Below are positions 37,304-56,707 of a DNA stretch of 64,000 nucleotides, piece by piece. Location: contig NZ_JACHYH010000002.1 of NCBI RefSeq assembly GCF_014192715.1, forward strand, positions 186,001 through 250,000, written 5' to 3'. Each line of letters starts with the position of its first letter. The first letter of the stretch is position 1. The notes beneath the pieces were generated by a model that did no database searches, was not told the origin of the DNA, and worked only from the letters and a program-made list of their open reading frames with translations. The position numbers were made by a program, and so were the translations under genes. The stretch comes from Luteibacter sp. Sphag1AF. GTDB lineage: Bacteria > Pseudomonadota > Gammaproteobacteria > Xanthomonadales > Rhodanobacteraceae.

Positions 37304-37789
37304 TTACATTCTGTTGTCCGTTACCGTGAAGCTCTTGCTTCCCGTGGCTCCAGCAGCGTCAGTGGCGACAACACTATAAACGCCGCTCACCGTCCCGGCC
37401 GGTGGGTTGGCAAGGCGGCGGAATGCCGTTGTTGGGCTGGTAGGTGTGGAAATGGTAAACGCGGCCCCCGAGACATACGAAATATTGTATGTGTACGGTG
37501 GCGTTCCACCTGATGCGCTTGCCGAAGCCGATCCAATGATGGCGTTGCCCGTGCCTACCGATGTCGATCCCGTCACGTCGGGCTGAGTGACGTTGATGGT
37601 GGTGGTTGCGGATGCTCCGCAAAGCTGCCCCATAGATATAGGGAGTGCGGTCGGGACATTTGCGTTCTGGGCCGTGTTTGGCACATAGGGTCCGCCGCGA
37701 AGAAAGAATCCAAGAGGACTACCTGCGGGTGCCCCAAACTCAGCGTAGACCTGCCCAAGCGTAATAGGTGGCGTTGCAGGAAGCGTCAC
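37304..37789 (-). CDS. Phage tail-associated protein with Ig-like C-terminus
   Basis: 161 aa, start GTG overlapping the tail-fibre stop (GTGA). The N-terminal part (PPITLGQVYAEFGAP, LPISMGQLCGAS) resembles short phage tail proteins that carry the phrase ALPISMGQLxG. The C-terminal part (GGTPPYTYNISY, GVYSVVATDAAGATG) is an Ig-like/cadherin-like fold. Stop is TAA, with no in-frame TAG. It is the last gene of the late operon. Confidence 0.65.
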   Translation of the reverse strand: MTLPATPPITLGQVYAEFGAPAGSPLGFFLRGGPYVPNTAQNANVPTALPISMGQLCGASATTTINVTQPDVTGSTSVGTGNAIIGSASASASGGTPPYTYNISYVSGAAFTISTPTSPTTAFRRLANPPAGTVSGVYSVVATDAAGATGSKSFTVTDNRM

Positions 37790-38991
37790 AGTAGCCCCGC
37801 CTTCTTCAGGACGCCTTCAAGGAAGGCCACTCGCTCCAAGGCAATAGCTGCCTTGTCGATGCCAAGGTATCCCTCGTGGGTCGTAAAGACGTACTCAGGG
37901 GCGACCTTGCGAACCTCCTGAGCGACAAGGCCAACGGCGTACTCGTCCGTCTTCTTCCACGTCCAACTCTTGAGCTGGAGGCATGAAAGATTTCGCGGCT
38001 TGAACTTCCCAATGATCCTCTTGAGGCGCCTGTCAGAGGTCTGGATGACAGTCGGAGCCGTAATGGTCCCTCCGAATGTGACCTAGCCTCCGCTAGCATT
38101 GAAGCTCATGGGTAGAGCCACTGATGCCGCATCGCTGTAGGAATCAATGGCTGTGTTCGTTCCGCCCGTGGCCACGTACATATCCACTCGCTGGCCGGTT
38201 CCAGAGGCCCCTCGCGTAACACGTAGAACGGGGAAATCGGTGGCTCGGACGATGGCCCCGAAGCCGCTCGTCACAACGGCATTAAGCTACCCAGTGGTAG
38301 TAGTTCCTGTCACTGACAGGGCTCCAGGAAGATTCACGGAAGTGAGGCCTTCATGGACAACCCGGTAAGTCGTTGTGGTTAGCGAACCTCCACCAATCTT
38401 TAGTACATTGTCTGCGTCTAAGCCGAAGTTTATGCCGTACTGCCCTTGGCGAATGAAGTTGATATAAGCGGCCTAAGCCGATGTACCGGAAACCTCAGCC
38501 TGAATGACAAGGCCCCTTGTTGGGTTATTGACTGAATTAGCGATGGTGGAATCTTTCGCAGAGACGAGATTTTTCCCGCTGAGGGTAATGTCGCCAACCG
38601 GACGCGATGAGTTTACCTGCGTCCAGTTGCCTGAACCTTGACTGCGAAAGGTAATCACGTCTCCAGCATTTGTCGTGATGTCTCCGCCACCGACGAGAAC
38701 AATTGCCGATGAGTTTTTGATCGTGCAGGCGCCCGAGAAATACACCTCTCTCTTTATGCCTGCCGCGACGGTTCCGAAGCTAGTGATAGTAGAAGCCCCG
38801 GTGACCGTAACCGCCTCTGCGTCAGCCGTACCGAGATCGGTGGTAGAGGCCGAGGGAATGGACGCCGAAGAAATGCCGTTCGTGCTCCGGGTGATTGCGA
38901 AGCCTGCGCGCAGGTAATCATCAAGACTATTTCCAATTGCGTCCGAGCCAGCGGGGCTGTTGTTGGCAGCAATCGTGAACAAATCCTACAT
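37786..38991 (-). CDS. Tail fibre with S74 chaperone end, four in-frame TAG
   Basis: 401 codons if TAG is sense. TAG is at codons 2, 173, 235 and 303 (lowest coordinates 38986, 38473, 38287, 38083). The protein starts M-TAG-DLFTIAANNSPAGSD, a familiar tail-protein opening. The C-terminus TSDRRLKRIIGKFKP followed by AVGLVAQEVRKVAPEYV is the S74 intramolecular chaperone, far downstream of all four TAGs and in the same frame. True stop is TGA. Under the standard code the protein would be one residue long. Confidence 0.88.
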
Positions 38992-39007
38992 CTTTACAGG
39001 AACACCC

Positions 39008-39226
39008 ATGTTTGATCCTCAATCGTTCTTCGTTCGACTATTCTTAGGGCTGATTATTGCGCCAGCAATAGGAATTTTGCTCTTCGGGACGGCCCGACTC
39101 ATTGCCATGGCCATTGCTAAGTGGATGCCGGAATCAGCGTTGAAACGCCGCCTACTGACGGACACCGAGAGCGGACGACTGGCTTACAAGCCCAGAAGCT
39201 CCGGCCGCGACATCCGCAAGGGCTGA
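39008..39226 (+). CDS. Small membrane protein on the opposite strand
   Basis: 72 aa. One strong membrane segment (FLGLIIAPAIGILLFGTARLIAMAI) followed by a basic tail (SSGRDIRKG). The ATG at 39008 follows AGGAACACCC. It lies between two late genes but on the plus strand, and its 3' part overlaps the end of the ejection-protein gene. It might be expressed in the lysogen, for instance in exclusion. That is speculation; no family recognised. Confidence 0.5.
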   Translation: MFDPQSFFVRLFLGLIIAPAIGILLFGTARLIAMAIAKWMPESALKRRLLTDTESGRLAYKPRSSGRDIRKG

Positions 39227-41188
39227 GCGCTGCTTGGCTGTCATCCTCGCGATGATTGCCTGCGACTCAGGCGCCTGCGGGTTGGCGATTACGCCGGCCA
39301 GCTTAGACTTTATCGTGTCATTTGTTCCGAACATTTTATAAAGAGCGTCCAGCGGCCGCAGGACGGTCCCCAGTAGACCGCTGTCGGCAAGACCTGGCAA
39401 GCCCAGTCCGTTAGCAGCCTCTCCCAAAAGGTTCTGGCTGGCAAGGTTCTGGACAGTATTAGATCCTGCCGACTTTCCGACACTGTTAGCCACTTTGACG
39501 CGACTCAGATCACCCAGAAGGGACTGGATGCTTTCCTTCTGCTGTGGGCTAAGGATGGCGTCCGCTGAGGCATTCTTTTGCCCCGTAATCTTCGCTGCCA
39601 TCTGATCGAGACTGCCAACCGCGCGACCGAACGCGTCAGGCCGGATCACCTGATTACCTAGCGCGTCGATGTCTGCTGGATTGGCCGTGACGCGGCCAAG
39701 TAGGCCCTGAGCTAGCTCAAGCCGATTTACTGGAGCGCTACCCTGGGCGAACGACTGCCGTGCCTCACGGTACGCCGGGTTCTGCCGCTCCAATTCCCCG
39801 ACAAATTCCCGTTTGGCGCTGGCGATGGCGTTCTGTTCCGCCTTTCCGATACCCATCTGAGGGGCGACGTTAAGCGCATCGTCCAGAGCCATCTTGACGT
39901 AGTGCTGGCCCTGCAACGTGCTCATCGGATCACCGATGTCTATGCCTGCATTCGCGGCGATATTTTTCGCCTGTTTAATCGCCGACTGGATTACCGGGCG
40001 TTGAGCAAGCTCCTGCATTTTCCCGGACGGAGCGAGGATGCTTGATGCCTATTCTTGGGCAGCCTATTGAATTTGCTTCGGCATGCCAGACCCCGCCAGA
40101 AGACCGGCATCCGCTTTTCCTTGCACCAGCGTTGCTGCTGCGTTCTGCTCCCTGGCGAGTCGCTGCGAATTGAAGTCGGTAAAGGCCTGGCCATACTTGG
40201 CCTGCGCCAAGGTATCCCGAGCTGATTTAGCTGCGGCCACATCAGCTTCCGTGCCAGCCATCTGCTGAAGGAGGCCAAGACGTGATGCGTTGTTCCCGGC
40301 CTACTGCTCGGCGAACTGGCGAGCGATGGCCGGATCGCTATCCGAAACGGCTCGCCGAAGCTGGGCAATACCTGCGTCACCGGTCTGCTCTGCAAGGTCC
40401 GCGTTAACCCCCGGAACGGCACTGGGCGTCGCCCGTTTGGCGGCATCACCGCCGAACCGGCTTAGCGTGTTGGCAACAATCTGGTCCTGACCACCACCAA
40501 AGAATGGGGCTAGAAGACCTTTCGCGCCACGGATACCTGCCCCGATGACGTTGACAGCCCCTTGGCCAGCCACGCCAGCACCAGCACCAAGCAACGTGTT
40601 GCCTGCTCGGCTCAACTCCGTCTAGTCACCTGCCAGCGGCTGTAGCGCACCCAGAAGGCCGCCAGATGCCGCCGCACCACGGTAGCCAGCAGGAAGAATG
40701 CCGCCGCTTAGGCCCGCCCCCTTGAGCGCTGTGCCGCCAGCAACCGCCATCCCTGCCTAGCCCGCAATATTGCCTGCGATACCGGCTTTCGTGTGCATGA
40801 GGGCCGCATCTTGATCGTTCGTCTATTGCTGCTCTTGCTTCAGGCGGTCATAAATGCTCGCCGGATTGATCGCGTCAGGGATGGCGTCCTGCGATCCGAG
40901 GGAGTGTCGCTGAATAAAGGCTGGGACGGCGATTGCGGCCTGCTTAAGGCCCTGCCACGTATCCGCAACAGCCTTTCCCGCACCCGCACCGAAGTTCTGA
41001 GAGTCAGTGCCGAGACCGTTAGCCGGAGCATCATCCAGTCCCACTAGATGCCCTAGCCCAGCCTTCCTGTAGAAATCTGGCGCAGGAACATCGGCGTAGT
41101 ATTTTTGCCGGATAGCAGCCGCAAGCTTTCCGTCCGGAACATCGGCGTACTGGGGGTACTGCTGTCGAATGTCATCAAGTATCGTCAC
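39134..41188 (-). CDS. Large phage ejection/internal virion protein, seven in-frame TAG
   Basis: 684 codons. Start GTG overlaps the upstream stop (GTGA). Segments joined across TAG codons (40823, 40757, 40622, 40301, 40064, 40049, 39152) keep one frame. The N-terminus is LDDIRQQYPQYADVPDGKLA, typical for proteins injected with podovirus DNA. The middle is Ala/Gly-rich (AGAGVAGQGAVNVIGAGI) and the rest helical. The first base-level alternative end is the TAG at 39152. Reading it gives five more residues and TGA. The role is inferred from position after the capsid/adaptor block and composition. Confidence 0.78.
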
Positions 41189-42567
41189 AGGCCAAGTCCA
41201 AGCGGGTCTTTTGCGTTGAGGTCGATAGTTCCGCCACCCATCTAAGGCGCGGCAGCATGTCCGTCGCCACCAGCAAGTTTTGCAAAGGTTGCGGCTGCTT
41301 TAGGAGTGACTACCTAGAGGCTCTTGGACCCATAACCGAGGGACTAGTTGGCCTGATCTTGCATTGCGGCCAGCCGACTCTGAACAAGTTCAGCATATGT
41401 CCTTAGGGTGGCCTTCAATTGTTCTTTCGGTAACCCTGCGTCAAGGCTATGAGCAATCTCTTGCCGGTCGCCTAGAGCGCTTTGACCACCTGCGAACAAC
41501 TTCGCAGATTCATCGCCAACTGCTTTCGCTGCGGTGCCATAGGTACCTAGAGATGTAGCTCGGCCTGTGTTACCGAGGGAAGCGCTGATATTGTTCAGCT
41601 TATTCAGTGGGCCAAAATTGCTATTGTCGAGCTGGTCGAGTGCATCGTTTAGAGTACTCAGATGACCAGCGAGAGTATTCAGAGACTTCACCTGCTCGCC
41701 AAGCTTCCCCGAAGTGAATGCCTGGCGAGCTGCCGCACGCGACTTGTAGTTTCCAGCGTCAAGGGTTGGGTCTACCTGCTGTGCCACCTGCACGAGGCGT
41801 TGCCAGTTGGGGTCCATTGCCTGCTTGCCAGTCGGAACAGGATAGCGTCCGTCCACAATCGACTGCACGGTGGCCTTGTCAGCGGGAGACAGACTGTCGA
41901 ACGTAACCGGTGCGCCGCTGGCGGCACCGCCAATCCCCAGCTTTGCCCTAATGTCATCCTCGCTCGCCCCGTACTGCTTGAGAAGCGCAATCTGCTGGGC
42001 AAGAGCTGATGTCGCCGATTGCTGAGGGGCAAAGCGTCCTGCCGTGGCAATTGTCTTGTAACTGCCATCGGCCTGTTGTTCCTGTGTGAGGATGTTGCTC
42101 CCCTGCTCGATCTTTCGGATGTCGGGCGTATTCAAGTCACGCTGCGCTTTCTGCGACTGCAACCCCACCAACTGATTCCGCAATTCGTTTTGATGAAGCT
42201 CCATCGCTGCCTACGGGTCGAGCTGACTAAGTGCCGACTGATAGCCCGGCATATCAAATGTTCCGTCAGGCTTGGCGAACTTAAGGGCAAGGTCCTATAT
42301 CTGCTGGCGTCGCTGCATCTACTGCTGCTGATCCTGCATCTGCGCCTGCTTGAAGCGGTCCTGTATAAGCTGCTGACCGCCCTGCTGCACCGACTGAAGT
42401 CCTCCGAGAAGTCCACCTGCAAGAGCCTCGCCGGGGCTGACCTGCCGGGAATTGTTTGCAGCAAGTGCGGATAAGCCTGCTTGCAGAAGACCACCGCGCA
42501 CCAGTTGCTGCTTATCGGCTTCGCTCAGTCCTGGCTAGTCACCAACAATACCGTCATACCAAGCCAT
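41185..42567 (-). CDS. Phage ejection/internal virion protein, seven in-frame TAG
   Basis: 460 codons. TAG lies at 42535, 42319, 42295, 42211, 41344, 41314 and 41242, always in frame. The protein is helical and Gln-rich (GGLQSVQQGGQQLIQDRFKQ, then AQMQDQQQ immediately before a TAG). A later part resembles DNA-injection proteins (ALDQLDNSNFGPLNKLNNIS, RQEIAHSLDAGLPKEQLK). ATG overlaps the upstream TAA and the end TGA overlaps the next GTG. No TAA or TGA interrupts the frame. Confidence 0.8.
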
Positions 42568-42980: not shown

Positions 42981-42989
42981 ATCTACGCC

Positions 42990-43931
42990 TTAAAGGTAGT
43001 AAGAGAGCGCGCCTGCGGCCGCTCCGATGGCCGTTCCCCATCCCGGATAAATCTGCGAGCCAGCCGCTGCACCTGCGCCCGCCGAGGCCAGCGCACCGCC
43101 TGCCGTCTTGGGCCTGTATGCGGGGTTTGCTCCCGTCGTGGCCGTGCTCTGAAAGGACCCGGAGGTAGAGTTCAGGGCGTTTCCGTAGTTGGCCAGACGC
43201 TGCTGATCGTAACCGTAGTTTTTCTGATACCAGTCGTTGTAAGCCTGGTCGATATTTCCCTGGTTGTAGTCCTGCTGCAACTGGCCAAGCCCTGCATACG
43301 AATTAAGATACTGGTTCTGCAAGGCGCCCGTGCCAGTGATGGCGTTAGAAGCGTTGAGGATGGTCCCTGCGTTCTGCTGTGCGGCGGCAAGCTGATTTTG
43401 GAAACCCTGCTGCCACCTGTCGGCCTGAGCGTTGTAGTCCTGATAGCGCAGATTGCTTGTGTTGTCTGAAAGGCTCTTCGCCAAAGTCTGCTGACTGGCA
43501 TCCTGAGCCTGTTGCATCGCAGATCCACCGAATGCACCGCCCTATGCGAACTGCGTAGGAAGTCCCACGCCAGCCCCGCGTAGGTATGAGTCGGTGATGT
43601 CGCGATTCGAGTTACTCACTACCTGATCGATATACTGGTTCGGGCCAGCATATGGGCTCTGCTGAGCATTCACGCTCTGGCCGCCATTCAGTAGGTTCTG
43701 GAGAGCAACGTTCTACGACTGGTTGCCTTGCGCACCCATCCGGGCAATCTGAAGCGCATAGTTCTAGTCGGCCGTGGGTGCCGCCGTGAGGTCGCCAGAA
43801 TAAGACTGATACGGCTTAGCGTTTACTGCGTTCGTCTGATTGAAGAAGGACGTATAAGCATTCGACAGCCATGCTGGAAGCTCTGTCTTCGTGGTCGTGG
43901 TCGTGTTGCTCGGGGTTCCGCCGCCGCCCAT
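42990..43931 (-). CDS. Phage internal virion/tail protein, three in-frame TAG
   Basis: 313 codons with TAG at 43764, 43713 and 43542. The N-terminus (GGGGTPSNTTTTTKTELPAW) and the Gln/Asn-rich middle (AGLGQLQQDYNQGNIDQAYN) are typical of podovirus ejection proteins. The C-terminal 30 residues are Gly/Ala-rich and hydrophobic (GGALASAGAGAAAGSQIYPG), suited to membrane interaction during DNA injection. True stop TAA. Confidence 0.75.
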
Positions 43932-43932: not shown

Positions 43933-44367
43933 TCAATTCACCTCATACCATGTGTGCAATTTAGTGGCGTACCGTTCCGGCCACTTGTCTTGCGGTGTGC
44001 AGAAAACAAGCCTCTCGTAAGGCGAGTTAGCCAGAACCATCTTCGCAATCTCGATGCCATAGTGCCCCGTGGATGGCTCCTTTGTGTAGCCGAGCCACAG
44101 ATTCAGGGCCGGAGGCATAAACGGAAAGTGGTGAGGGGCAAGGACCGCAAAACCTGCGTACTCGTGCCCACCTTTCGTCACCATATACATGGCAGCGTGG
44201 CCCGACGCGATAGCGTGAAAAACATCCTCCGGGATGAATGGCTCATGGTTCGTGGAAATGATTTCCTCAATCCCCGGCCGAACAATGGGCCAGACCTGCC
44301 GAATGTCATGGACATGACTGAAGTGCATTACGCCATCAGCCGTTACACCATTAATCAAGTCGTTCAT
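43933..44367 (-). CDS. GNAT-like protein in the virion block
   Basis: 144 aa, no in-frame TAG, stop TGA. Segments GHAAMYMVTKGGHEYAGFAV and LNLWLGYTKEPSTGHYGIE suggest an N-acetyltransferase-like fold, though the acetyl-CoA loop is not clear. Similar small proteins sit next to ejection proteins in P22/BPP-1-like phages. The start overlaps the upstream stop (TGATG). The call is tentative. Confidence 0.55.
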   Translation of the reverse strand: MNDLINGVTADGVMHFSHVHDIRQVWPIVRPGIEEIISTNHEPFIPEDVFHAIASGHAAMYMVTKGGHEYAGFAVLAPHHFPFMPPALNLWLGYTKEPSTGHYGIEIAKMVLANSPYERLVFCTPQDKWPERYATKLHTWYEVN

Positions 44368-44672
44368 CAGTTGCCCGTCAGTGTTCTAACCTGAACCCAT
44401 GTGCCCGGCGTGCCTGCCGCCACGCACTGCCAGCCGTGCACGATATATTTCGCACCTGCTGAGCCAGCTTCGACAGGCGCGGAATTTCGCACGAAGTCAC
44501 CCAGCGCGTTCTGCCCCTGAGTTGGAATGGTAGCCTGCGCGTTGTACACAGCCGCCGTTCGTCCCTCCGTCAGTAGATTGACCTACGTGGCGATATTTCG
44601 GAACAGATCAGACAGCCTTAGAACGAGCTGCTGGGAGTCCGATGGAAGGGTGGGATTTACCTAAAGTTTCAT
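44367..44672 (-). CDS. Small phage protein, TAG at codons 4 and 30
   Basis: 101 codons. It opens MKL-TAG-VNPTLPSDSQQLVL and continues NIAT-TAG-VNLLTEGRTAAV, both TAG in frame (44661, 44583). The C-terminal part (HGWQCVAAGTPGTWVQVR) resembles short phage tail/adaptor proteins. The ATG overlaps the upstream TGA, and the end overlaps the next ATG. No specific role can be assigned. Confidence 0.65.
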
Positions 44673-46123
44673 TCGGGAGTTGTTGCCTTCAAGTCTGGCG
44701 TATACCCATCAAGAGATACCGTGCTCGGCCAGTCAATGCGAACACGATGCCACCGGGCTACGCGGAGAAAATCGAAGCGCTGCCTTGCCTAGGCAATCGT
44801 TGAGTCCTGAATCGGCGTTGATCCAAGGTCATAACGGTAGAGATTGGTCGCCTAAGCCGATGGCGGCGTGATCCGGTAGCGCGGCGTCACCCTTTTGAGC
44901 AGGGAGTAATTCGTCTCATCGCCAATATCGCCCGTCACGATGTACGAGGGGCCAGGGACGCCAGTCAAACTATAAAGCTTGTGATCCGTCGAAATAACGC
45001 CAGGGACAGTGTTGTCCGCGATCCAGAATGGCGAGTCGTAGGCAATATTCGGGAGATTGTCATACGTGCTGTACAGCGACCCAAGGCCGTCATAGGTAAC
45101 CGTGCCAGAAGAGTACTGGATCACAGCCTCGATGGATCGGGAAAACTTACCCCACTTGTTTGTACGGATATTGTACACCACGCACATATCGCACACTCCG
45201 GTGCTGGCCGTGCTTGGGAAGTACCAGTAGACCAGGTCACGCGTCAGGTCCGCACCTCCCCTGATATTGGCACGCTGCTGGCCGTTTAGGTTAGTGAAGA
45301 ACCACTCTCGGACGGGAGCGCCGATAGATCTAGGCACTGTGCCGTCATAGACAAAGAAGTCATTCGGTCCAACGAAGAAATGGCTCGCAGCTACAACAAC
45401 GACAGCCTCCTACCCGGAACAGCCGATATCGCCCGGGATGCGTTGCCACTGCCAGATCAGCGGGGGGCCGACATACTGCCCTCGATACATGGACTTTTCT
45501 TTGTAGGCAACGACATCCGCCCCGAATTCACGCGCCGCAGTGATTGGACCAGGAGAGTCAACGATTCTGGCGTTTGCAGCTTGAGAGCCAAGCGTGGGCG
45601 TCCATGCAGTCTGGTCAAAAAGGTTGGAACACCACCATCCATCCGGCTGATCGCCGTAACTTCCCGTTTGATCTGACCAGTTGAACGCAAGTACGAAGTT
45701 GGACGCCGAGCACACGATAGATGCTGCGGGAGCCGTTGGAATATCAGAAAAGGCCCCCGATGGAGCCGCCTGCTAGATTCTCTGGGCACGATTCGTCGCG
45801 ATGATGTTGCTTCCAAACATCGTGAATCGCCATGGTGAAAGGCCCGTGTATGCACCTGAGCGACTACGATCCACCCATGCACCACCGGCGATGTCATAAA
45901 GCTTGGCCTGGGTGCCCGCAACAATCCGTTTTGTTCCGTCGAGCAAGGTTCCCACATAAGCGCCCTTGCATGCGCTGTCTAATGGACTAAACCCGGCATC
46001 CACCAGGCTATTCCCGGACGAAAATCCCTTCGTGGTAGGGATGATGTTATCGCAGTCCATCAAAACGCCAGGCGTTGATGGGTCTAGGTCCGGACCAAAC
46101 CCAATGAGCTAGATTGAACTCAT
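44669..46123 (-). CDS. Phage head-tail stabilisation protein (gp10-like), five in-frame TAG
   Basis: 484 codons. TAG at codons 5, 117, 238, 424 and 445 (46109, 45773, 45410, 44852, 44789). It begins MSSI-TAG-LIGFGPDLDPSTPGVL, and the body (TKRIVAGTQAKLYDIAGG, RFTMFGSNIIATNRAQRI) resembles P22 gp10-like packaged-DNA stabilisation or tail-tube proteins with repeated beta strands. All pieces fall in one frame, and the true stop is TGA. ATG overlaps the upstream TGA. Confidence 0.82.
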
Positions 46124-46725
46124 GGGTTCACCGCCGTTGCAGGACGCATACGGGCGTTGCGAAGACGAGCCATCCTATCTGCCTTCTCAAGGGCTGCCAC
46201 AGCATTGCTGTATCCCGTTCCCCATACAGGCGTACGAGGATCATCCTGAAGATAGACGCTTGCCTCAAGAAGTGCTGCATACAGGTAGATCTGTGGTTGC
46301 GCGAGGATAAGCCAGTTCTGGGGAGTCGCATCCGAAAGAGATGGGATCTTTGCGAAGTAGTGCAGTGTGTAGGCTTCTGTGCCCTAACCACCGAATGTCT
46401 GTATGGCCGTTGACCCAACACGGAAATTGCGCGGCACACTTCCGAAGGTTCGGTTATACGATTCTGTAATCGACTGCGGCTCAAGTGAAAATTCAACGCC
46501 ACCCATCTGAATTATCAGCGACCGTGCTTCCGCGAAATCCTATGGAAGCGTGGCCTGATAGTTTGCCAGCACGCCAGAGAGGGCCGCATCCATCTGGCGG
46601 ACACGAATCTCTGCTGAGATCCTTGCCTCAGCAAGCTGGATGAAGTCAGGGATGCGAGCCGCCAAGTCAGCACGCGAAAGCCAAGCCGCCACCGCCGCCT
46701 GTAACGTGCTGTAGTCATTAATCAT
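46120..46725 (-). CDS. Phage head-tail adaptor protein, two in-frame TAG
   Basis: 201 codons with TAG at 46540 (codon 62, QATLP-TAG-DFAEAR) and 46384 (codon 114). The N-terminus INDYSTLQAAVAAWLSRADL and IQLAEARISAEIRVRQMDA are typical of the P22 gp4-like/adaptor family next to capsid genes. The C-terminal part (LHYFAKIPSLSDATPQNWL) is also adaptor-like. Ends TGA, overlaps both neighbours by 4 and 1 bp. Confidence 0.8.
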
Positions 46726-47355: not shown

Positions 47356-48303
47356 TTAGCTCAGGTCAGCGACCAGTGCCGAAGCCGCCTCATTCGAGGC
47401 CTGCAACGCGTACTCACAAACCATCGCGTACTTGTAGCCGTCGCCCGTCTGGCCGAGGTCAAGATCCTGCATCCAGCGGCCCTTAAGGGGGCGCAGCTTC
47501 CAGTGCGACATATCCGCAAGGAACGCGAAGTTGCCGATGGTGCCGGTACGAATGGGGACGATCTTGATGGGACCGAATTCCGACACGTACACCTGGAACG
47601 AGGCATGGATCTTGTTACTGTCAGCCTCTTCAAAGCGCGTCGTGCCACCATTGAATGCCGAGGTAAGCACCTTGTCCGAAGGCCGAACAAACAGCGTGTC
47701 AGGCGAGCCGCCCTGCGTAAACGCATTCTGCATCGCCGTCTTCAGCATCGCCTCGGTAAACGTGCGATTCGTACCCGCCACTGGAGCCGTATTGGTGGCC
47801 AGAACCGGAGCAGCACCGCCCGCGCCGAACTAGACGTTAGTGGCGACCCAGCCACGCACGCCACGCGTCTGACGCGCGACCGTGGCCGAGCCAGCGTTAA
47901 AGGTCGTGTTCTGGAGCAGCGCGTACTCAATGTCCTTCTTGAGTTCCTTGCCCTGCTTCAGCTTCTGGTAGTTGATCTCATTCGGTCGGCCAGCCGACTT
48001 GATAGCCTGCTGGGTGTTGGAGATGATGAACTGAATTCGGCTGATCTGGGTGTAGTTGCCGATACGTGCGGTCGGGTTGACGGCCGCGAAGGTAGATACG
48101 TCGTCACCTTCGACCTGTGCGTTTGCACCTGCCGTACGGAGCGCATCGGTCTGCCATTCCGTGTAAGTGTTTTCGGCGGTCTCCTTGGCGAGGCCAGAGA
48201 GGAAGGGTGTTTCGGCGGGGCTGATGTTGTCGATCAGGTCGCTCAGGTCTTCACGATTGCCTTTCGCCTGGTAGGACTAAAAGGTAGTTGCCGGTGCTGC
48301 CAT
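47356..48303 (-). CDS. Major capsid protein (DUF5309/SU10-like), two in-frame TAG
   Basis: 315 codons with TAG at codons 9 and 158 (48277, 47830). The N-terminus reads AAPATTF-TAG-SYQAKGNREDLSDLID, then NISPAETPFLSGLAKETAEN, a strong match in pattern to the DUF5309 major capsid family. The second TAG follows RGWVATNV and precedes FGAGGAAP. The C-terminus with HWKLRPLKGRWMQDLDLGQT is also characteristic. Ends TAA. HK97-fold assembly is expected with the upstream scaffold. Confidence 0.9.
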
Positions 48304-48308: not shown

Positions 48309-49322
48309 TTAATTCCTATCTCGTGCATTGAGGGCGGCGAGTGCGTCCTCCAATGAGCCCGTGCGCTTCAGCTTCTGAAATGCCTGCTTGGCTGACTGGT
48401 TAGTAGGTGCATCGCCAGACTGTGCCGTAGCCTTAACGGGCTTTACCGGGGCAACCGGAGCCTGCGTTTTCTTGGCCTTGGCTTGCTGTAGTTGGTCGAA
48501 AAGCGCGGCCTTGCGGGCCACCACAATCGCGCGAGGATCGTAGACGGCGTTGATTTCGTCGTCCTGATAGCCCGCGCCACGCAGAACACCCGCGACCATA
48601 GCGGCCTCTTGCGCCTGCTTATTGTGATCCCTCCACTCCGGGATGAGATTCAGGAGCTGTTCCTGTTTCTCGGCCACGAATTCAGGCGAAGGGGGCTGAT
48701 TTGCTGCTGTGACTTGCGACTTCTGAAATTCATCAGCCGCCCGGAAGGCCTCAAACAAGCGACCCTGCTTTTCATCGAAGCGAGCCCTTGCCTGGATATA
48801 AGCCACCGGATCAGTTTCCAGCAACTGCGACAACTCGGCTTTGTCCCCTACGAGTTCCTGTGCCAAAAGGTTGACCATCGAATGCAATCGGTTGGCCGTC
48901 TATGACAGCTCCTATGCCTTCGCGGTAGCAGCCTCATGGAACTGGGCTTTCTCTTGTGCGTGACTTGCCGTCTTCTGGCGGTAATCCGCCTCCCGCGAGT
49001 ATCCCGCGAGCAGTTCCGACTGCGTTACATTCAGAACCTTTCCCTGCACCTTGACCTGATAGACAGGCTCTTCAGGCTCAGCTTCGGGATCAGCCTCGGG
49101 CTGTTCCTCCGGATCAGGTTCGGTTTCCGCCTCGTCGCCACCCTCGCTTTCGTCCTGCGACTTATCCTCCAATGTCTTCGCAGCGTCGTCCTCGTGGCCT
49201 TCTGGTTGGCCCTATTCGGGCTCATCCGGCTACTCGTTCAGTCGTGCGAATGCTTCATCAAGGCTAAGGCCGCTCGCCGCGTCGCTTGCGGTGGACGAGA
49301 GTTCCGTTTCCGGTTGACTCAT
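48309..49322 (-). CDS. Scaffolding protein, four in-frame TAG
   Basis: 337 codons, TAG at 49230, 49212, 48912 and 48900 (codons 31, 37, 137, 141). It is very acidic at the N-terminus (EGGDEAETEPDPEEQPEADP), helical in the middle (YRQKTASHAQEKAQFHEA, LLETDPVAYIQARARFDE), and ends with AFQKLKRTGSLEDALAALNA. This composition and the place directly before the capsid gene are typical for scaffolds. Ends TAA. Confidence 0.83.
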
Positions 49323-49536: not shown

Positions 49537-49835
49537 GTAGGTAAGTCGTTCTGAGAGTTCAGCCCAATCGCCCGGGAAGCCTTCCGCACGAGGAACTGTC
49601 TGGCCACCTGTCCCGTCTGCGCGACCGACTGAAGTTGCGTCTTTACCATGCCTAGCGCCTTTAGCATGCGCCATATGTTCTCCCTCTCATCGTTGTCTTT
49701 ATAGGATGTGGCCTCCCACCGCTTTCGGAGATTGTCCTCCACCGCATCAAAGCACTCTTGGTACAACTCGTCTTTCAGCAGCTGGTCGGCCCTGTCGCCA
49801 CGCGAACCGAGCTTCATTGCCATCTGGTCGTCCAT
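49533..49835 (-). CDS. Small helical phage protein downstream of portal
   Basis: 100 aa, no TAG, stop TGA. Charged helices (LLKDELYQECFDAVEDNLRK, ENIWRMLKALGMVKTQL). Start ATG overlaps the portal stop (TGATG). Small genes of this type often follow the portal in P22-like phages. Function unknown. Confidence 0.75.
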   Translation of the reverse strand: MDDQMAMKLGSRGDRADQLLKDELYQECFDAVEDNLRKRWEATSYKDNDERENIWRMLKALGMVKTQLQSVAQTGQVARQFLVRKASRAIGLNSQNDLPT

Positions 49836-52078
49836 CAAATGGGCTCCTGTGATTCTTGGTAGGCCGCATCCTCGCTGGCGGTACTGGCATCCTTTGCGCC
49901 CATGGCCTTAGCGGCCAGGATCTTCGCCTCCGCGTTAATTCTGGCTACCTCAATGGCCGTCTACTGCGCCATCTGAGCCTTTGCCATGGCGAGCTGGTAT
50001 TCAAGGTTGGCCTTCTCTCGCGCAAGAGCCAGATCGTTCTGCGCCTGCATGCGATTGCGCTCAGCTTCAAGCTGGGTCCGCGCCTGTGTCTCCTGCGCCT
50101 GATATTCCTGGCGCATCCTCTCTACCTCTACATCACCCTGCTGCTTCTGAGCCTGTAGCTGTCCCTTCTGCTGAAGCTCGGCCATCTTCGCCTGCGATTC
50201 GGCCTGCACCTTGGCCATTCCCGGATCAGGTTGCTGAGGCGGCGGCGGGGCGTTCTGCGGGTTCGTGATGTATTGATCGGGATTGTGCTCGCCAGACGCT
50301 TTAATGAGTTTGGAGAGTAGGTTGTAAACATTCTCAGGTGCGACCAGACCGGGGATTGCTCCGCCTGCCTGCTGCACCGCATTCCCGATCAGCATCAGGT
50401 TCTGTACCTGCTCTTTCTTGCTCGCCGTGCCGATGCCCACAGATACGGTCATGTCGTACTTCGTGGCCCACGCACGAGGGTTGATGGCAAGCCACTCACC
50501 GTCAACCATGATCTGGTCGTGTCGATTCATGTGCTGGGTGATGCACTTCAGCATGAGCGACCACACACGCTTAAGACCACCCTCAGCAAGGTTGCGCGCG
50601 ATCAGCTCAATGCGCTGCTGGCCCTGATTGAGAAGCGACTCCACTCCTTCTGAGCCAAGGGCCGATTTCGACAGCTCGCCACCAGTAAGCCCCTGGTTGA
50701 AGCTAGACACGCCGCTACGGCCATCGCGCACCGTCGAGTAGTAGTCAAGCATGGACAGGCCAGCCTGCCCCACAAACGGCGTCACAAGCTCGCTTACGCT
50801 GCCCTGCACGTCATCCGTCAGGACAATCCCGTTTGGCTGCGCATGGATCAGGGCGTCAAGATCAGTATTGCTGTTGGCGTTCACCAGCTTTCGCGGGTTG
50901 TTCGCCATGTACAGGTTATCGAGAACCTGGCGCGTCACTGCCGTTTTGATGCGCTGGAGATCTTCCAGAAGGTCGTAGATGCCTATGCCCACCAGCTTGT
51001 ACGGCATGAGCAGACAGTCGAACATGGCAAACGGATGGCCGTCGCACACCTCGTTCTCGAAGATGTATGAGCCCGACTTTACGATATGACGGTACTCGGC
51101 AACCCCATCGCCATCGAAGTCAACGCGCATGTAGACATCTTGCAGGTCAACGACGCGCTGACTCTTCTCGGGTGCCGGAATCGTGTCCCAACTGTCGTCG
51201 TAATCGCCTCGCTCTATGGGCTCTTCGGTGATGTTGTTCAGATCATCGGAAAGCTGCTCAACTTTTTTCCGGTCATATCCCAAGCTAATCAGGTCGGAAA
51301 TGGTCTTCTCTTCCCGATGCTCGATATAACGGAGATCCTCGATCAGTCGAGATTCCTTGCTAGTACGCATGCGCTCAGGCGGGACGCCCTCGATAACAAC
51401 CTTGGACTAGTCCTTTACGCGCTTCGCCTTGATGTTGAAAACTCGCTCCTGCTGAGGCTGAAGCGGCATGGCCACTGGGTTGCCACCACCCAGAGCATCG
51501 GGCGGAAGCATCGGCTGGGGCGGCTGGTCGGATACATTCGGCATGCCGATTGCAGAAACCTCTTCTACCTCAACAATCTCTATCTCTGGGTCCTGACGAA
51601 GTGCCTCAAGGTCAACCTCAGAAAGACCCTCATAGGTTTCGTCTTCGTCAACGTGTGTCTCGTCCCAATAGACTTTAACGAACGCATGCCGAGATATCAG
51701 CGCGGACTTAATGGCATCGGAAAGCGTGTAGTAGCCAGGGTTTTTACGCCAAAAAAGGTAGGAGCAGTACTCGCTAGCGGCCTTAACCTGATCCTCATCG
51801 CCCTAACACGTCGGCTCAAACTTGATGACCGCATCAGATCCAGCAAACGTCCGCATCAGGGTTGGATGAATCCATTCCACGACCTCCTGCACATCCTTAG
51901 ACACGACGCGACTGCGTCCGTCCGTATCGGGAGGCGCAAGGTCACCCTTTGCCTCCCCCATATAGAACGACATGGCCACCGCTCGGTCGCGAGACAGACG
52001 GTCGTTAGCACCGATGCCGTTTGCACTCTCGGTCTCGATCAGAGCGCACAGCTCGGTATCGGTCATCTTCTTTTTCAT
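49835..52078 (-). CDS. Portal protein (P22-like), three in-frame TAG
   Basis: 747 codons with TAG at codons 92, 224 and 706 (51803, 51407, 49961). Restored length matches the large P22-type portals. The N-terminus is TELCALIETESANGIGANDR, the middle has YMRVDFDGDGVAEYRHIVKS and FDCLLMPYKLVGIGIYDLLE, and the C-terminal barrel is a long Gln/Ala helix. The portal is the dodecameric DNA entry ring. ATG overlaps the terminase TGA. True stop is TGA. Confidence 0.9.
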
Positions 52079-53370
52079 GCTATCCCGAGTCGTGGGTAAA
52101 TGAGTTTCTTCGTGCTGGTCGTTGAGTGCGATGTATGGTCAACCGCCATCAGGCCGAAAGCATCCGAGCCGTGGCTAGACCAGTCGTGGCAAGGACCGAG
52201 TCCGACACCGCGAATCTCGTCCTTCTTTTCGTGATACCAGCCAAGGGCATCACGACCGGCCTCCGTCGTTTCGGCATTGAACCAGCACTGGGGAAGAATG
52301 CGCCTGACCGTCTCAACGCGGGTATTGGCAGCACCTGCACCTATATTCGGCACTACCCTCACCTGAAATCCGGCCTGCCTAAGCGTGCTTTCGTAGCTGA
52401 CCCGATAAACCTTGTCGTGCGTCGCTCCGTCATGGGGAAGTACGCACAGTGCCTTGTCATATTTTTTTGACCTCAGCCAGTCGATGTGCGTTGCCAGCTC
52501 CTGGCCAACGGCCTCGTAGTAGTCGAGGACGCGAATCTCTTTGCCGACGAACTACACGATCCAGATAGCGCACGCATCAGCCTTTGCCCCAGTACCGCCG
52601 ATGTCCCAGTAAGCACGGAGCGTCATCAGTTGGTCGGCACTCAGCCTCCCTATGCGTCCGTCATCCTTGGCATCTGCAAGGCCCTTGGCGAAGTAAGCGC
52701 CCTCTACCGCCGTCTTGAATCCGCCCTCCCAAACATGATCGTAACTATCAGGACGCTCCGTCTTGTCCTTCTGCCTCAATCGCTCCAGGATCGCCGGGAA
52801 CCACGGGTTGTCACGCCAATTGCACTCCACGACCTTCACGCGCGGGTCTTTTGCCTCACGGAACCTAAGATGTGTCGCGCTGTTCTTGCGCTCGGGATTC
52901 CACGTCACCCATAGCTCGCTGTCTTCCTCGCGAAGCGTTGGCAGCAACTTGACCCACGCCGTCTCGGTGACGGGCTCAGCCTCATCTACCCATGCCAGCT
53001 TAATGCGTGCCTTCGACTTGATGCTGTCGATATTGCGATCAAGGCCGGTGAACTTGTAGGCAATGCGACCCGACTTCGTGCGCACATACTTTTCGCCGAT
53101 GTCGAAATGCGGCCTGAGCCACGCCTCTGACTCAATAGCCGCCTTGATTTCCTCAAGGGAGGAATCGTCCAGCGAGTTCATGAACTGACGGCCGCACAGA
53201 ATGATCCCCTCGTCACCGGCCTAATCCCACATGTAGGCTCGCACAGCCGTCATCTTCGCGAAGCTGCGCGTCTTGGCTGAACCTCGCCCACCGTAAGCCC
53301 CACGAACGTCTGCGTCGCCCGTAAACACGTCGATGAGTTTAGGCGGCAACTCAAGCTTTATCGTTGACAC
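52075..53370 (-). CDS. Terminase large subunit, two in-frame TAG
   Basis: 431 codons. GTG start overlaps the upstream gene. Walker A-like AYGGRGSAKT is near residue 35. TAG at codon 50 (53221) lies in AYMWD-TAG-AGDEGIILC, then GRQFMNSLDDSSLEE and KLAWVDEAEPV (Walker B/catalytic Glu). The nuclease part begins AYWDIGGTGAKADACAIWIV followed by TAG at codon 273 (52552) and FVGKEIRVLDYYEAVGQ. From family memory this position is commonly Gln. Ends TGA. It translocates DNA into the prohead. Confidence 0.92.
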
Positions 53371-53638
53371 CGGGAACCAGTTCAATTCTCAGGATGTGGG
53401 CCAACGGACTATCGCTATCGCCGGAAACCTCAACAGACTGACGGGGCTTGCCCCAACCTCGGTCAAGCAACGTCTCCGCCGCCTTCACACGCGCAGCTGG
53501 CGGCTTTCCGTCGTCCATGGCAATTCCGATAAGCACGCCCAATGCAGCGAGCGTGTGCTCGCGGGCAGCGTCCTACACCTCAGCAAGAAGCTTAGGTCTG
53601 CCACCTGGGTTGCCCGATTGTCCTTTCTCGAAAGCCAT
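53351..53638 (-). CDS. DUF5681-type protein, probable terminase small subunit, one TAG
   Basis: 95 codons. The N-terminus FEKGQSGNPGGRPKLLAEV is the DUF5681 signature. TAG follows directly (codon 22, 53573) and then DAAREHTLAALGVL continues the same domain. The rest (RVKAAETLLDRGWGKP) is typical of this family upstream of large terminases. Ends TGA overlapping the terminase GTG. Start ATG at 53638 follows a GAGAACA stretch. Confidence 0.82.
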
Positions 53639-53675
53639 TGTTCTCTGTTGTTCTCAGTTCAGGTAAGTGCGCCGT

Positions 53676-53813: not shown

Positions 53814-53815
53814 AG

Positions 53816-53886
53816 TGGCGGGGGTGGACAGAATCGAACTGTCATTAACGGGTTTAGAATCCGTGTCAGCGCCCAAGCGCACCCCA
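53816..53886 (-). tRNA. Amber-suppressor tRNA (anticodon CUA), probably charged with Gln
   Basis: 71 nt including encoded CCA. Acceptor TGGGGTG opposite CACCCCC (T1-C72 unpaired), discriminator G73. Anticodon arm ACGGA-TTCTAAA-CCCGT with anticodon CTA, T-arm GACAG-TTCGATT-CTGTC, variable loop TAAT. The first six bases, G73, the weak 1-72 pair and U35 match the identity set of bacterial tRNA-Gln. The D-arm is reduced (GCGC-TTGG-GCGC, overlapping the acceptor end). A31-C39 mismatch closes the anticodon stem. It lies inside the late operon, 6 bp after a small gene. Confidence 0.88.
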
Positions 53887-53892
53887 GCAATC

Positions 53893-54063
53893 TTAGTCAT
53901 CGGACGGCTCATCGAGCGTCCTAAGAGATTTCGCTTGCTCGGCGTATAGGGCCTGCAAGACCACACTCAGGCGCGTCACCTCAGCAAAGTCGCCTGCATT
54001 ATTGGCACTCACCAGCTGGGAATAGACTTCATCGTGGTTCATTCTCTCGGAGCCGCCACTCAT
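53893..54063 (-). CDS. Small phage protein before the suppressor tRNA
   Basis: 56 aa, helical and acidic (NHDEVYSQLVSANNAGDFAE, RTLDEPSDD). No TAG, stop TAA. ATG overlaps the tail-collar TGA (ATGA), supporting a real gene. It ends 6 bp before the suppressor tRNA, so tRNA and mRNA must be processed from one transcript. Unknown function. Confidence 0.65.
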   Translation of the reverse strand: MSGGSERMNHDEVYSQLVSANNAGDFAEVTRLSVVLQALYAEQAKSLRTLDEPSDD

Positions 54064-54572
54064 ACGACGACCCTGATAAGAAACTTCGTGACCTGCACAG
54101 GGTGGATGTTGTTGTGCGGCCCACTGGAACCTGCCGCCGCTGTAGAGGCTGTCGGCTGTGCGCTAACCCGATTGCTGCTGCCCAGGAGGTTCAAGGTGGC
54201 ATCTGTCGCGACAGTGGTTGCCGTGTAGCTGTGCGAGTGCGAGGGCATCTGCGCAACAGTAAGTGTGTGCGTTTCCGCCCCAAGCTTTGAGCCTGCTACT
54301 CGCGACGTTCCCGTGGTGCCGCCCTCGGCCGTCTAGCCTACGCCATCGCCCATAGGAGATCGCCCCCGGAAGTCGGGGAGGTTGAACGTACTACTGCCAT
54401 CGCCAGGGCCATAAGTCGTGCCGATGACGCCAAAGAGAGGGCCATACGCCACTCGATCCATAGCCGATCCATCGCACACGGCCCAGTCCGCAGGAATCTC
54501 TGTGCCCGCGTACATGATGACCATGCCCAGGAGAGATATCTGTGTGGTGCCCATCGGCTGTATCAGACTCAT
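54060..54572 (-). CDS. Phage tail-collar protein, one TAG
   Basis: 170 codons. The collar-domain pattern is clear: MYAGTEIPADWAVCDGSAMD and TTYGPGDGSSTFNLPDFRGR, then GDGVG-TAG-TAEGGTTGTS (TAG at 54333, codon 80), and after it HTLTVAQMPSHSHSY and GPHNNIHPVQVTKFLIRV. Both sides belong to the same domain, so the TAG must be read. Ends TGA. Confidence 0.9.
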
Positions 54573-54751
54573 TATGCGGTCGCGTTCGATGGAGCAAAGT
54601 TGGCGGCCAGGTAATAGGCCAGCGCATCCCAAGTCTCGAAGGAAACGGACTGCTGGGCTGGATCGGCAGGGCTCTATACGACAGCGAAGCCGTTGAACGT
54701 CTTGACGATAGTGATTGCGGTGCCGCTCAGAAACGTCGGGATGCCAGTCAT
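54572..54751 (-). CDS. Small phage protein, one TAG
   Basis: 59 codons. FLSGTAITIVKTFNGFAVV precedes TAG (54674, codon 26), followed by SPADPAQQSVSFETWDALAY. Ends TAA, overlapping the collar ATG by 1 bp, and starts overlapping the spanin stop. Unknown, probably a small tail or virion protein. Invisible under the standard code. Confidence 0.6.
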
Positions 54752-54999
54752 TTGATGCCTTTATGGTTTTGATTGGACCAACCGCAAATGTCCTTGCCAG
54801 TCAGGTCATGAGAAAGAATCTGCTTTGCTGTCCCATCCGTCAGCACGTCATCTTTGGACACATAGATGGGCCTTGCCCACTCGCACCCATCAGTCGCGTG
54901 ACCACTCGTCGCGCAGCTACTGAGCAGCGGAATTATCAGGAGCGGAAGCCACAGGCACAGTAGGCGCTACAGGAAGGTTGTTAACCTAATCATCCACAT
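54748..54999 (-). CDS. Outer-membrane spanin-like lipoprotein (Rz1-like), one TAG
   Basis: 83 codons. A hydrophobic signal follows TAG at codon 11 (54967) and ends in a lipobox (IIPLLSSC). The mature part ATDGCEWARPIYVSKDDVLT and KQILSHDLTGKDICGW resembles a widespread Rz1-like phage family. Its start lies inside the inner-membrane spanin gene in another frame, the classic nested Rz/Rz1 layout. The TAG precedes the signal core, so without suppression no lipoprotein is made. Ends TGA. Confidence 0.78.
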
Positions 55000-55150
55000 G
55001 TTGACGCTTACCCCGATGCTTGCTTGCGGCCTTTTCGGCCCTCTATTCCTGAGCCTGGCGCTCATCAGATGATGCCCTGTGATGGACCCACAAGAGGCTA
55101 GAAAGCCAGAGGGCCACCACTCCGACAACGCCGTAAAGCCAACGATTCAC
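54890..55150 (-). CDS. Inner-membrane spanin-like protein (Rz-like), three TAG
   Basis: 86 codons, GTG start overlapping the upstream stop. One N-terminal membrane helix (WLYGVVGVVALWLSSLLWV) is followed by a charged region (HHRASSDERQAQE). TAG at codons 36, 55 and 78 (55043, 54986, 54917) all lie after the membrane helix. Ends TGA. Overlap with the Rz1-like gene supports the spanin call. Without suppression a membrane stub lacking the periplasmic rod would form. Confidence 0.72.
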
Positions 55151-55314
55151 TTACCGTCCTCCGCATCGCAATCGCAAGGCCCCGGAATGTGTGCTGGAGA
55201 CCTACTGGTTGCGCAGTCACTACTGTGCGTTACCTTGCCGCTCTGCCGTATGTATTCGGCCGCTAAACACTCGTTAAGAAGTCCGGCTGCCATCGACGCC
55301 TGGTAGTTAGTCAT
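55147..55314 (-). CDS. Small Cys-containing phage protein in the lysis block
   Basis: 55 aa, no TAG, stop TGA overlapping the spanin GTG. Contains QASMAAGLLNECLAAEYIR and a Cys-rich end (GPCDCDAEDGK). Not recognised. Tight overlaps on both sides support it as coding. Confidence 0.55.
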   Translation of the reverse strand: MTNYQASMAAGLLNECLAAEYIRQSGKVTHSSDCATSRSPAHIPGPCDCDAEDGK

Positions 55315-55408
55315 CGCCGGGGCTCCCCATGACCATCATGACAACGACGATGCCAATCGCCCATGGCAGGACTTTAAGGAGAATGATGGCCATATCCGAC
55401 CTACTCAT
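55307..55408 (-). CDS. Very small membrane protein, holin-like
   Basis: 33 aa, a single membrane segment (AIILLKVLPWAIGIVVVMMV) and a short polar end. No TAG. ATG at 55408 overlaps the end of the protease gene. Its place among lysis genes suggests a second holin or antiholin, but length alone cannot prove it. Confidence 0.5.
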   Translation of the reverse strand: MSRSDMAIILLKVLPWAIGIVVVMMVMGSPGDD

Positions 55409-55994
55409 ACTCTTCAGCGGTGAAGACGATAGGCAGTGATCCCATCAATTTAAATTGGACGCCTTCGTACACCTTGCTAAGGCAGAAACTTGTCACACCT
55501 ACAATGTCACCCTAAGCGTCGAAGATCCCGGACCCAGAATCGCCAAAGAATCCGTTGACGTCATAGATAGTGACCAGCCTTCCATTGTCACTATCAAAAC
55601 CTGCAACGCGTCCCAGTCGGAACATATCGTTCAAAAAACCGGGGTTCCCCCATAGGAAGACCTCATCGCCCTGCTTCGGTGAGCTGCCGATATGCGACCA
55701 GTGGCTGAAGGTCGTCGTAACAACCAAGAGCGTGTGGTCGTTCCCGTCATCAACGCTTCGTACAACTTGGGCCGGTATGCCGTTAATCGTCAAACTGACA
55801 AGGCCGACGAAACAGTGGGTGGCGGACAAAATCACGTGTGGACCTACCGCCGTACCACTGCAAACGCCATCCCCATTCATCTCTAGCCGAAGGGTCGTCA
55901 TGTGGGATCGTGCGAACACATCGGAAGGAGGAGCATGCGCGCAGGCCCCCAGAGCAAGAGCAAGCATGAAAGCCAGGGCTGCGCAGATTTTCAT
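55374..55994 (-). CDS. Trypsin-like serine protease lipoprotein in the lysis block, two TAG
   Basis: 206 codons up to TAA. Signal peptide with lipobox (LALALGACAH). S1-type catalytic residues: His in LSATHCFVG, likely Asp in DDGNDHTLLV, Ser in GFFGDSGSGIF. TAG stands just after that (codon 161, 55512), followed by GDIVGVTSFCLSKVY, the usual strand after the active Ser. A second TAG (55401) precedes the TAA. The position between endolysin and spanins is unusual for a protease. It may attack envelope proteins during lysis or act as cargo. Confidence 0.72.
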
Positions 55995-56061
55995 ATTTCT
56001 TTCTCAGACCGACTGGCGGTCATAGTGATGGCCACCCAGGGCCGTTTTTTCCCTTTCGCGC

Positions 56062-56532
56062 TCAATCCTTCACGCACAAACGATATTCAGCGTTACGACG
56101 ATTGACGAGGCCCTGAATCTTGCGGCCCTTGGCGTACACCCAAAGAAGGATCGCCTGGCACGAGCCAGGGAGATCCCCCGCATTGGCCAACTTAGCTGCG
56201 GTGGAACGGCAGAAAGCCTACACACCGATATTGAAGGTCAGAGAAGTGAAAGCTGCCGCCTGGTTAACAGTCAGGGGCGCCCTGTTAACACATGAAGCTA
56301 CTCCAGAAGCGGCAATTGTGATGTCTCGCTTGAACCATGCGTCGCACTGATACTCGTCGTAATACTTGCCGAGGATGACCTCCGGCCCCGTGTGTCCAGT
56401 GCATGCCGTGGTAATCCCGACAACATCGGAATACGCCACATGACGCACACCCTCCCACGGCTTGATAAAGGCCATGGAAACGGCGACGACTGCGGCAAGT
56501 GACCCACCAATGATCTTAGGGTTTGGGCGCAT
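56062..56532 (-). CDS. Endolysin, GH24 lysozyme with signal anchor, one TAG
   Basis: 156 codons. An N-terminal uncleaved membrane anchor (IIGGSLAAVVAVSMAFI) is followed by the catalytic pattern WEGVRHVAYSDVVGITTACT with the Glu-Asp-Thr arrangement of phage lysozymes. TAG at codon 105 (56218) lies in LTFNIGV-TAG-AFCRSTAAKLA, a conserved family segment. Ends TGA with EYRLCVKD. It cleaves peptidoglycan after release from the membrane. Overlaps the holin stop. Confidence 0.9.
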
Positions 56533-56707
56533 GCGCGACTCGCCAGGCCTGATACCACTTGTAGATCTTCTCCGCGATCAGGAAGCACGTGTACATGCTC
56601 GCCACGACGTAGGAAAAAGTATCCCACTAGAAGCCCATCAAGGAAGTTCCTACGAACCCCACGATGGGAGTTGACTTGACCGCATCGGCGATGTGTTCAG
56701 CCTGCAT
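56516..56707 (-). CDS. Holin, one TAG
   Basis: 63 codons. First hydrophobic segment ST-PIVGFVGTSLMGF ends at TAG (codon 27, 56627), followed by WDTFSYVVASMYTCFLIAEK, a second membrane helix, and IYKWYQAWR. Two-helix pinholin/holin pattern next to the endolysin. Ends TAA. Without reading TAG only the first helix would form, so lysis depends on suppression. Confidence 0.8.

Follow-up and report, generated by a model that had tools for sequence, protein, structure and literature searches.

The late genes of a prophage in Luteibacter sp. Sphag1AF use TAG as a sense codon, and the non-late genes of the same prophage do not. The window analysed, a stretch of 64,000 nucleotides, corresponds to positions 186001-250000 of contig NZ_JACHYH010000002.1 (C2) in a 4.18-Mb draft genome of 18 contigs. 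From the sequence data, the TAGs in the late genes of this temperate phage, which serve lysis, packaging and the virion, are predicted to be read as glutamine by means of its own amber-suppressor transfer RNA (tRNA), encoded at 53816..53886 on the minus strand; the probability of this reading is put at roughly 0.86.

TAG codons in the late genes

An earlier note on this DNA had reported 59 in-frame TAG codons across 24 late genes. The recoding was borne out and the counts needed a small correction: the late block (37304..56707, minus strand) contains 58 in-frame TAG codons in 22 of its 25 open reading frames (ORFs), and no in-frame TAA or TGA. As the note had also stated, all of these ORFs end in TAA (11) or TGA (14), and the individual gene counts that it cited (7, 7, 5, 4, 3, 2 and 2) were reproduced. 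The ORFs free of TAG are 37304-37789, 46725-47003 and 55147-55314. Two of the TAGs, codon 14 of ORF 43933-44427 and codon 54 of ORF 54748-55128, lie ahead of the part aligned with most homologues, and these genes may start downstream; without them, the strict count is 56 TAGs in 20 of the 25 ORFs. No homologue was found among the relatives for ORFs 49372-49674 and 53893-54627, which together hold three TAGs. Homologues align from end to end across the TAGs.

In the other two frames of the late strand, TAG made up 42 of 204 and 44 of 297 stops, and in the antisense frames 203 of 633. Set against these shares, late in-frame stops that are all TAG exclude decay and chance as their source. Treating TAG as sense turns the late block, which is shredded in the standard code, into 25 tightly packed ORFs. 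In the comparison of coding density that the note had proposed, coverage by ORFs of at least 100 aa was 0.64 in the standard code and rose to 0.94 when TAG was taken as sense; the corresponding values for TGA and TAA were 0.83 and 0.70.

According to the PHROG naming of the late ORFs, it is mainly the structural and lysis genes that carry the recoded codons. No TAG occurs in the 20 non-late ORFs (13 early, 6 rightward and the integrase), which have 134 CAG/CAA codons, compared with 58 TAG against 352 CAG/CAA in the late ORFs (Fisher p = 4.8e-8). These 20 ORFs were called in the standard code, and 19 of them keep the same ends when called with TAG as sense; the remaining one, 63006-63764, then starts 75 nt (25 codons) earlier and spans one TAG. 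That the host itself uses TAG as a stop, as the note had held, is supported by 3 of the 16 host ORFs in the window (mechanically called, at least 250 aa) that end in TAG, and by the presence of prfA (RF1) in the genome, which also carries glnS (GlnRS).

Recoded relatives

A scan of genome contigs revealed a sole relative, a recoded prophage of Dyella sp. SG609 (Rhodanobacteraceae, NZ_JAAZQJ010000005.1) with eight TAGs in its portal gene. In the integrase ORF of this prophage (L038:753-2216), codon 366 is a TAG; it comes directly after the aligned part and, in this TAG-recoding phage, is probably the gene's own stop.

A portal-based scan of IMG/VR gave only the phage itself and one distant contig. 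Alignment of the gp10-like protein gave 26 IMG/VR loci, of which one (L107, 24% identity) was dropped. Of the remaining 25, 21 are recoded, with 14-58 TAGs in the aligned late genes, and four are TAG-free. Two of the recoded loci are phages already described here, the window phage (L082) and the Dyella prophage (L097), which leaves 19 further recoded relatives; L094 and L095 are near copies. Locus L082 was left out of the amino-acid calls across the recoded phages and of the tree, TAG-free-gene and TAG-position analyses. The aligned late segments of the relatives contain 30 TAA or TGA codons (0-2 of each per locus), all within 19 codons of a segment end, and 19 of these 30 lie ahead of the likely start of the homologue of ORF 43933-44427.

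TAG is read as glutamine

When the sense partners of TAG were collected from alignments of the window phage, the Dyella prophage and relative L068, 69 of 185 were glutamine. In a substitution fit, glutamine was ahead of the next best residue, glutamate, by 108 log units, and it ranked first in every one of 21 recoded phages, including those with long-arm tRNAs; the same method read ten control codons correctly. Thus, TAG is glutamine in these alignments. The earlier note had proposed glutamine by way of translation table 15, with no amino-acid measurement; its proposal is now shown by alignment, and the tRNA that would decode the codon had been overlooked. Glutamine at the TAG sites argues against a pyrrolysine system; ARAGORN labels CTA anticodons 'Pyl', and no pyl search was made.

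The candidate suppressor tRNA

The predicted suppressor is 71 nt long, with anticodon CUA, an encoded CCA end and a shortened D-arm. It lies between the lysis and packaging genes, 6 nt past the stop of ORF 53893-54627 and before the small terminase gene. When read by hand, the acceptor strands are UGGGGUG and CACCCCC, with an open U1.C72 pair, G2-C71, G3-C70 and discriminator G73. The anticodon loop is UUCUAAA, the T-stem is perfect, the anticodon stem has one A.C mismatch, and only 15 nt separate the acceptor from the anticodon stem. The tRNA is probably charged by the host GlnRS, since U35, G73, G2-C71, G3-C70 and the open 1-72 pair are glutamine determinants. Weakened 1-72 pairs have given glutamine-inserting amber suppressors, and changes in two acceptor pairs made an amber tRNA-Ser a glutamine acceptor (PMC9976931).

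The element matches the Rfam tRNA model at 53819-53886 (minus strand) with 20.8 bits, below the gathering threshold of 29. ARAGORN missed it: apart from host tRNAs, it reported only a tRNA-Gly(UCC)-like gene on the prophage and no CTA anticodon. Comparison of three short-D-arm tRNAs, from the window phage and two relatives, showed that 98.2% of cells pair, with four pairs changed on both sides; 7 of 500 shuffles scored as high.

At this site the Dyella prophage, too, has a tRNA of this type. Not counted were the TAG-free L091 and five recoded loci (L087, L092, L095, L098 and L103), which end before the site. All 16 recoded loci that reach it carry a CUA tRNA, 12 found by our own scan (which gave four matches in shuffled sequence of three times the bases) and four, with a long variable arm, by ARAGORN. 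In all 14 loci where both neighbours could be placed, the tRNA follows the homologue of the gene at 54572 and precedes the large terminase gene. At the TAG-free loci L090, L093 and L106, where the site is sequenced, neither the scan nor ARAGORN found a tRNA, nor did one appear in the whole records of L090 and L093. When a tree is built on three virion proteins, the TAG-free phages fall into two groups nested within the recoded ones (two changes), and a quick portal tree likewise requires two code changes.

The bodies of these tRNAs vary, with a truncated D-arm, an ordinary cloverleaf, an odd T-loop or, in the four of 87-94 nt, a long variable arm. Common to all 16 are G2-C71, C72, G73 and an open 1-72 pair (U.C, C.C or A.C); L085 deviates in having C3-G70 in place of G3-C70. 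The seven tRNA types require 10 changes on the quick tree, where a minimum of 6 would suffice, and so the tRNA bodies look exchanged.

A DNA pattern for the tRNA alone matched 28 stretches in IMG/VR, and these were filtered on the anticodon and T-stem pairing. Two contigs from outside this lineage, L058 and L062, of other phage families, passed, and their late genes carry TAGs. With TAG as sense, ORF coverage of the two pieces of L058 rose from 0.73 to 0.88 and from 0.79 to 0.98, and that of the two pieces of L062 from 0.82 to 0.88 and from 0.69 to 0.96. In L058 the portal gene (phrog_6547) has three TAGs and the capsid gene none; in L062 the portal (phrog_2739) and terminase genes have four each. 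ARAGORN calls neither suppressor. The tRNA of L058 has no encoded CCA and a possible U-G at 1-72, and that of L062 has U72, so that both depart from the rule of an open 1-72 pair with C72. The remaining pattern matches failed the anticodon and T-stem filter, some appearing tRNA-like in another register.

Position of the TAG codons and proposed timing of the code switch

Given its place on the late strand, with 6 nt between it and the preceding stop codon of a late ORF, the tRNA is probably excised from the late transcript. Little suppressor would then be present in the lysogen or during early infection, RF1 would terminate at TAG, and the lysis and virion proteins would stay unfinished; late transcription would make the tRNA and allow these proteins to be completed. 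The positions of the TAGs support such timing.

For the positional analysis, gene starts were trimmed to the conserved part, ORF 43933-44427 was left out, and the null distribution was obtained by placing TAG at random among the glutamine codons of each gene. Over 270 gene-phage cases, the first TAG was found at 0.162 of the gene length, where 0.323 was expected, and none of 3000 simulations gave so low a value. The shift survived skipping of the first 20 codons (0.233 vs 0.368) or 50 codons (0.341 vs 0.428). Taken singly, 19 of 21 phages showed it at p < 0.05, including the window phage (0.004); the exceptions were L087 (0.12) and L098 (0.10). Without trimming, the control codons AAA, TAT, AGC and GAA gave no significant 5' shift, and small shifts were seen for CAA (0.268 vs 0.299, p = 0.003) and TTG (0.279 vs 0.299, p = 0.045). 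The late genes without any TAG, summed over 20 related phages (a set from which L098, with fewer than 10 genes, was left out), numbered 74, compared with 118.9 (standard deviation 6.3) expected from glutamine codons and 86.4 (standard deviation 6.2, p = 0.03) expected from length. The 5' bias is read here as pointing to selection for an early translational block, relieved by the suppressor, with weak support from the evenness of TAG among genes.

Several results weigh against the proposed decoding and timing. After trimming, CAA remained slightly 5'-shifted (0.261 vs 0.293, p = 0.001). For the window phage alone, the deficit of TAG-free genes after trimming had p = 0.06 under the glutamine null and 0.50 under the length null (untrimmed, 0.003 to 0.012 and 0.11 to 0.17, respectively). 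The folding energy of the tRNA was ordinary compared with shuffles (z = -0.74), a promoter scan near it gave 0 matches (2.9 expected from shuffles), and the truncated D-arm might impair its function. The association between tRNA and code amounts to one independent contrast, to which L106, outside the test, adds a second lineage. Finally, RF1 is present and no phage antagonist of RF1 turned up, although no specific search was made; efficient reading of genes with seven TAGs is therefore not accounted for.

The alternative that survives best is neutral drift, whereby a suppressor tRNA was gained and TAG then spread as an extra glutamine codon wherever it was expressed together with the tRNA, with no gating. 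In keeping with this, TAG swaps with other codons (only 20 of 205 TAG-partner pairs are TAG-TAG), the TAG-rich L094, L095, L096, L099 and L101 have TAG-free genes at the expected number, and the window phage alone lacks a significant deficit of such genes. Drift would not, however, lead one to expect a first TAG displaced so strongly towards the 5' end even when 20 or 50 codons are skipped, four control codons without significant shift and small shifts for CAA (0.03) and TTG (0.02), the latter lost on trimming, or a summed deficit of TAG-free genes under both nulls. Drift is judged the less likely explanation, though of appreciable probability.

That a host tRNA or general read-through decodes TAG, and that the 71-nt element is not a tRNA, is very improbable. 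The low Rfam score, the failure of ARAGORN and the ordinary folding energy would fit that explanation. Against it stand the compensatory changes, seen in three sequences, and the ordinary cloverleaf CUA tRNAs held by relatives at the same site. In addition, of the 46 places where Rfam located a tRNA in the genome, one is the tRNA-Gly(UCC)-like gene of the phage and 45 belong to the host; ARAGORN read all 46 and none as CTA, in a draft genome whose list has no tRNA-Ile(GAT).

The four relatives with 87-94 nt CUA tRNAs raised the question of whether such long-variable-arm (Ser/Leu/Tyr-type) suppressors give TAG a different amino acid in those phages. This was rejected as having very little chance of being right: in these four, glutamine was best by 181 log units over the next amino acid (223 TAG cases), and C72, G73 and the open 1-72 pair are all retained in the tRNAs that they carry. 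Decay of the prophage, with TAGs as inactivating stops, can be dismissed, for although prophages do decay and the standard code shreds the region, 58 TAGs stand against no TAA or TGA, homologues align across them, there are 20 other recoded IMG/VR loci, including the Dyella prophage, and a suppressor tRNA is found at the same site.

The wider proposal is that the suppressor tRNA behaves as an exchangeable cartridge, always placed between the lysis and packaging genes, that tRNAs of different ancestry (ordinary cloverleaf, truncated D-arm, odd T-loop, class II) were made glutamine suppressors by opening of the 1-72 pair, that early TAGs were selected so that the code switch times lysis, and that such tRNAs may account for some of the code-15 phages without a detected suppressor. 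On the present sequence comparisons, this proposal might equally well prove right or wrong.

Relation to known systems

In code-15 crAss-like phages, recoding has been proven by mass spectrometry (Peters 2022, PMC9523058). As in the phage described here, crAss-like and Lak phages read TAG as glutamine in structural and late genes, many of them with a CUA tRNA, in a host that uses the standard code, and the same gating hypothesis has been advanced for code-15 gut phages (PMC9523058; PMC11210395). Peters 2022 describes recoding as particularly prevalent in phages of Firmicutes and Bacteroidetes, whereas the phage studied here is temperate and podovirus-like, with a 38-kb prophage in a gammaproteobacterium. 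Its best portal and capsid matches among those listed are podovirus-like phages, mostly of Pseudomonadota, and the host of its kin, Dyella, belongs to the Gammaproteobacteria; it is not placed in the Crassvirales.

That recoded prophages occur in standard-code hosts is stated by PMC10746230 with reference to Borges 2022; such phages are likewise integrated and combine an alternative code with a standard-code bacterium. The theta-ribozyme suppressor tRNAs (Kienbeck 2024, PMC10879173) are mostly of glutamine isotype and are also proposed to release recoded lysis and structural genes. Beside the present tRNA, whose CCA is encoded, no HDV-like Rfam match was seen (E <= 5; the published theta motif itself was not run). 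The glutamine-inserting amber suppressors of E. coli described in PMC9976931 show the same principle, in that CUA tRNAs of other origin came to insert glutamine once their 1-72 pair was weakened; those were laboratory selections, while here the open pair is common to natural phage tRNAs of about four body types.

A literature search yielded no account of this lineage, nor any of recoding within the Rhodanobacteraceae, with most subscription papers outside its coverage. Recoded prophages in standard-code hosts were already known; the lineage, the exchangeable suppressor tRNAs and the positional evidence are apparently new, to our knowledge. On the question whether stop-codon recoding is a lysis timer of phages or neutral drift, the 5' bias of TAG provides a quantitative argument for gating. 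The present case is compact: the prophage sits in a sequenced bacterium, a related one is available in Dyella sp. SG609, and the standard code is used by close relatives. A CTA suppressor was found in 375 of 715 code-15 phages (Cook 2024, PMC11210395), and a truncated suppressor that a standard tRNA finder misses bears on this figure.

The prophage and its genes

The prophage is about 38 kb long and podovirus-like, and its integrase gene adjoins its tRNA-Leu end. A 15-bp core at 37184-37198 is identical to the 3' end of the host tRNA-Leu(UAA) gene at L001:15216-15230, at the opposite prophage end; with the integrase and this attachment repeat at a tRNA gene, the phage is integrated. In 19 of 22 other genomes of the genus, the best match of the right flank begins at most 11 bp from the end of tRNA-Leu. 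The left flank matched 1 of these 22 genomes, about 18 kb from its tRNA-Leu, and no empty site was found. The tRNA-Gly-Cys-Leu cluster (36518-37160; L001:15216-15569) may be an integration hotspot; there is a second identical tRNA-Gly to the left of the prophage, and in genome G322 the homologue of the left flank and tRNA-Leu are about 18 kb apart. The Terminase_6N (PF03237) profile had no match in the host genome. The best listed portal and capsid matches are to podovirus-like phages, mostly of Pseudomonadota.

All late genes are on the minus strand. The lysis genes encode a holin (56516..56707, PHROG 920, one TAG at codon 27), an endolysin (56062..56532, PHROG 7, one TAG) and an Rz-like spanin (54748..55128, PHROG 1275), whose single TAG precedes the conserved part and whose start is uncertain. 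Also in this part are a protease-like protein (55374..55994, PHROG 9683, two TAGs), a small protein (54572..54751, one TAG), whose homologue in relatives sits just before the tRNA site, and a protein of unknown function (53893..54627, two TAGs), whose TAA ends 6 nt before the tRNA.

Beyond the tRNA follow the small (53351..53638, PHROG 10899, one TAG) and large (52075..53385, PHROG 3717, two TAGs) terminase subunits, the portal (49835..52078, PHROG 1216, three TAGs), the scaffold (48309..49322, PHROG 3927, four TAGs), the major capsid protein (47356..48303, PHROG 1328, two TAGs), a virion structural protein (46120..46725, PHROG 2941, two TAGs) and the gp10-like virion structural protein (44669..46123, PHROG 3287, five TAGs). 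The single TAG of the late protein at 43933..44427 is probably upstream of the true start. A DNA ejection protein (42990..43931, PHROG 4287) has three TAGs, and two large late proteins (41185..42567 and 39134..41188) have seven each, with end-to-end identities to their Dyella prophage homologues of 57.6% and 60%, respectively. The last of the recoded genes encodes a tail-fibre-like protein (37786..39009, PHROG 4900/1980, four TAGs).

The early and middle genes (56724..63764, minus strand) are in the standard code with no TAG and include an HslV-like peptidase, a metallophosphoesterase, HNH, NinB, DnaB and an O-like replication protein. Nor is there an in-frame TAG in the integrase gene or in the rightward genes (Erf, SSB, ATPase). 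The tRNA-Gly(UCC)-like gene lies in the early region (58544-58617, minus strand; Rfam 49.1 bits), has mismatches in the anticodon stem and overlaps the start of ORF 57998-58603. A tandem array of a hexamer (L001:9666-10168 on host contig C2, within the prophage; about 83 copies, consensus GGCTAT, 75% matches) is open in several frames and is possibly an unstable tract. An ATPase and VWA/HNH-like gene pair (L001:7696-9611, plus strand) is 75% and 65% identical in the Dyella prophage, and is thereby more conserved with it than most genes of the phage.

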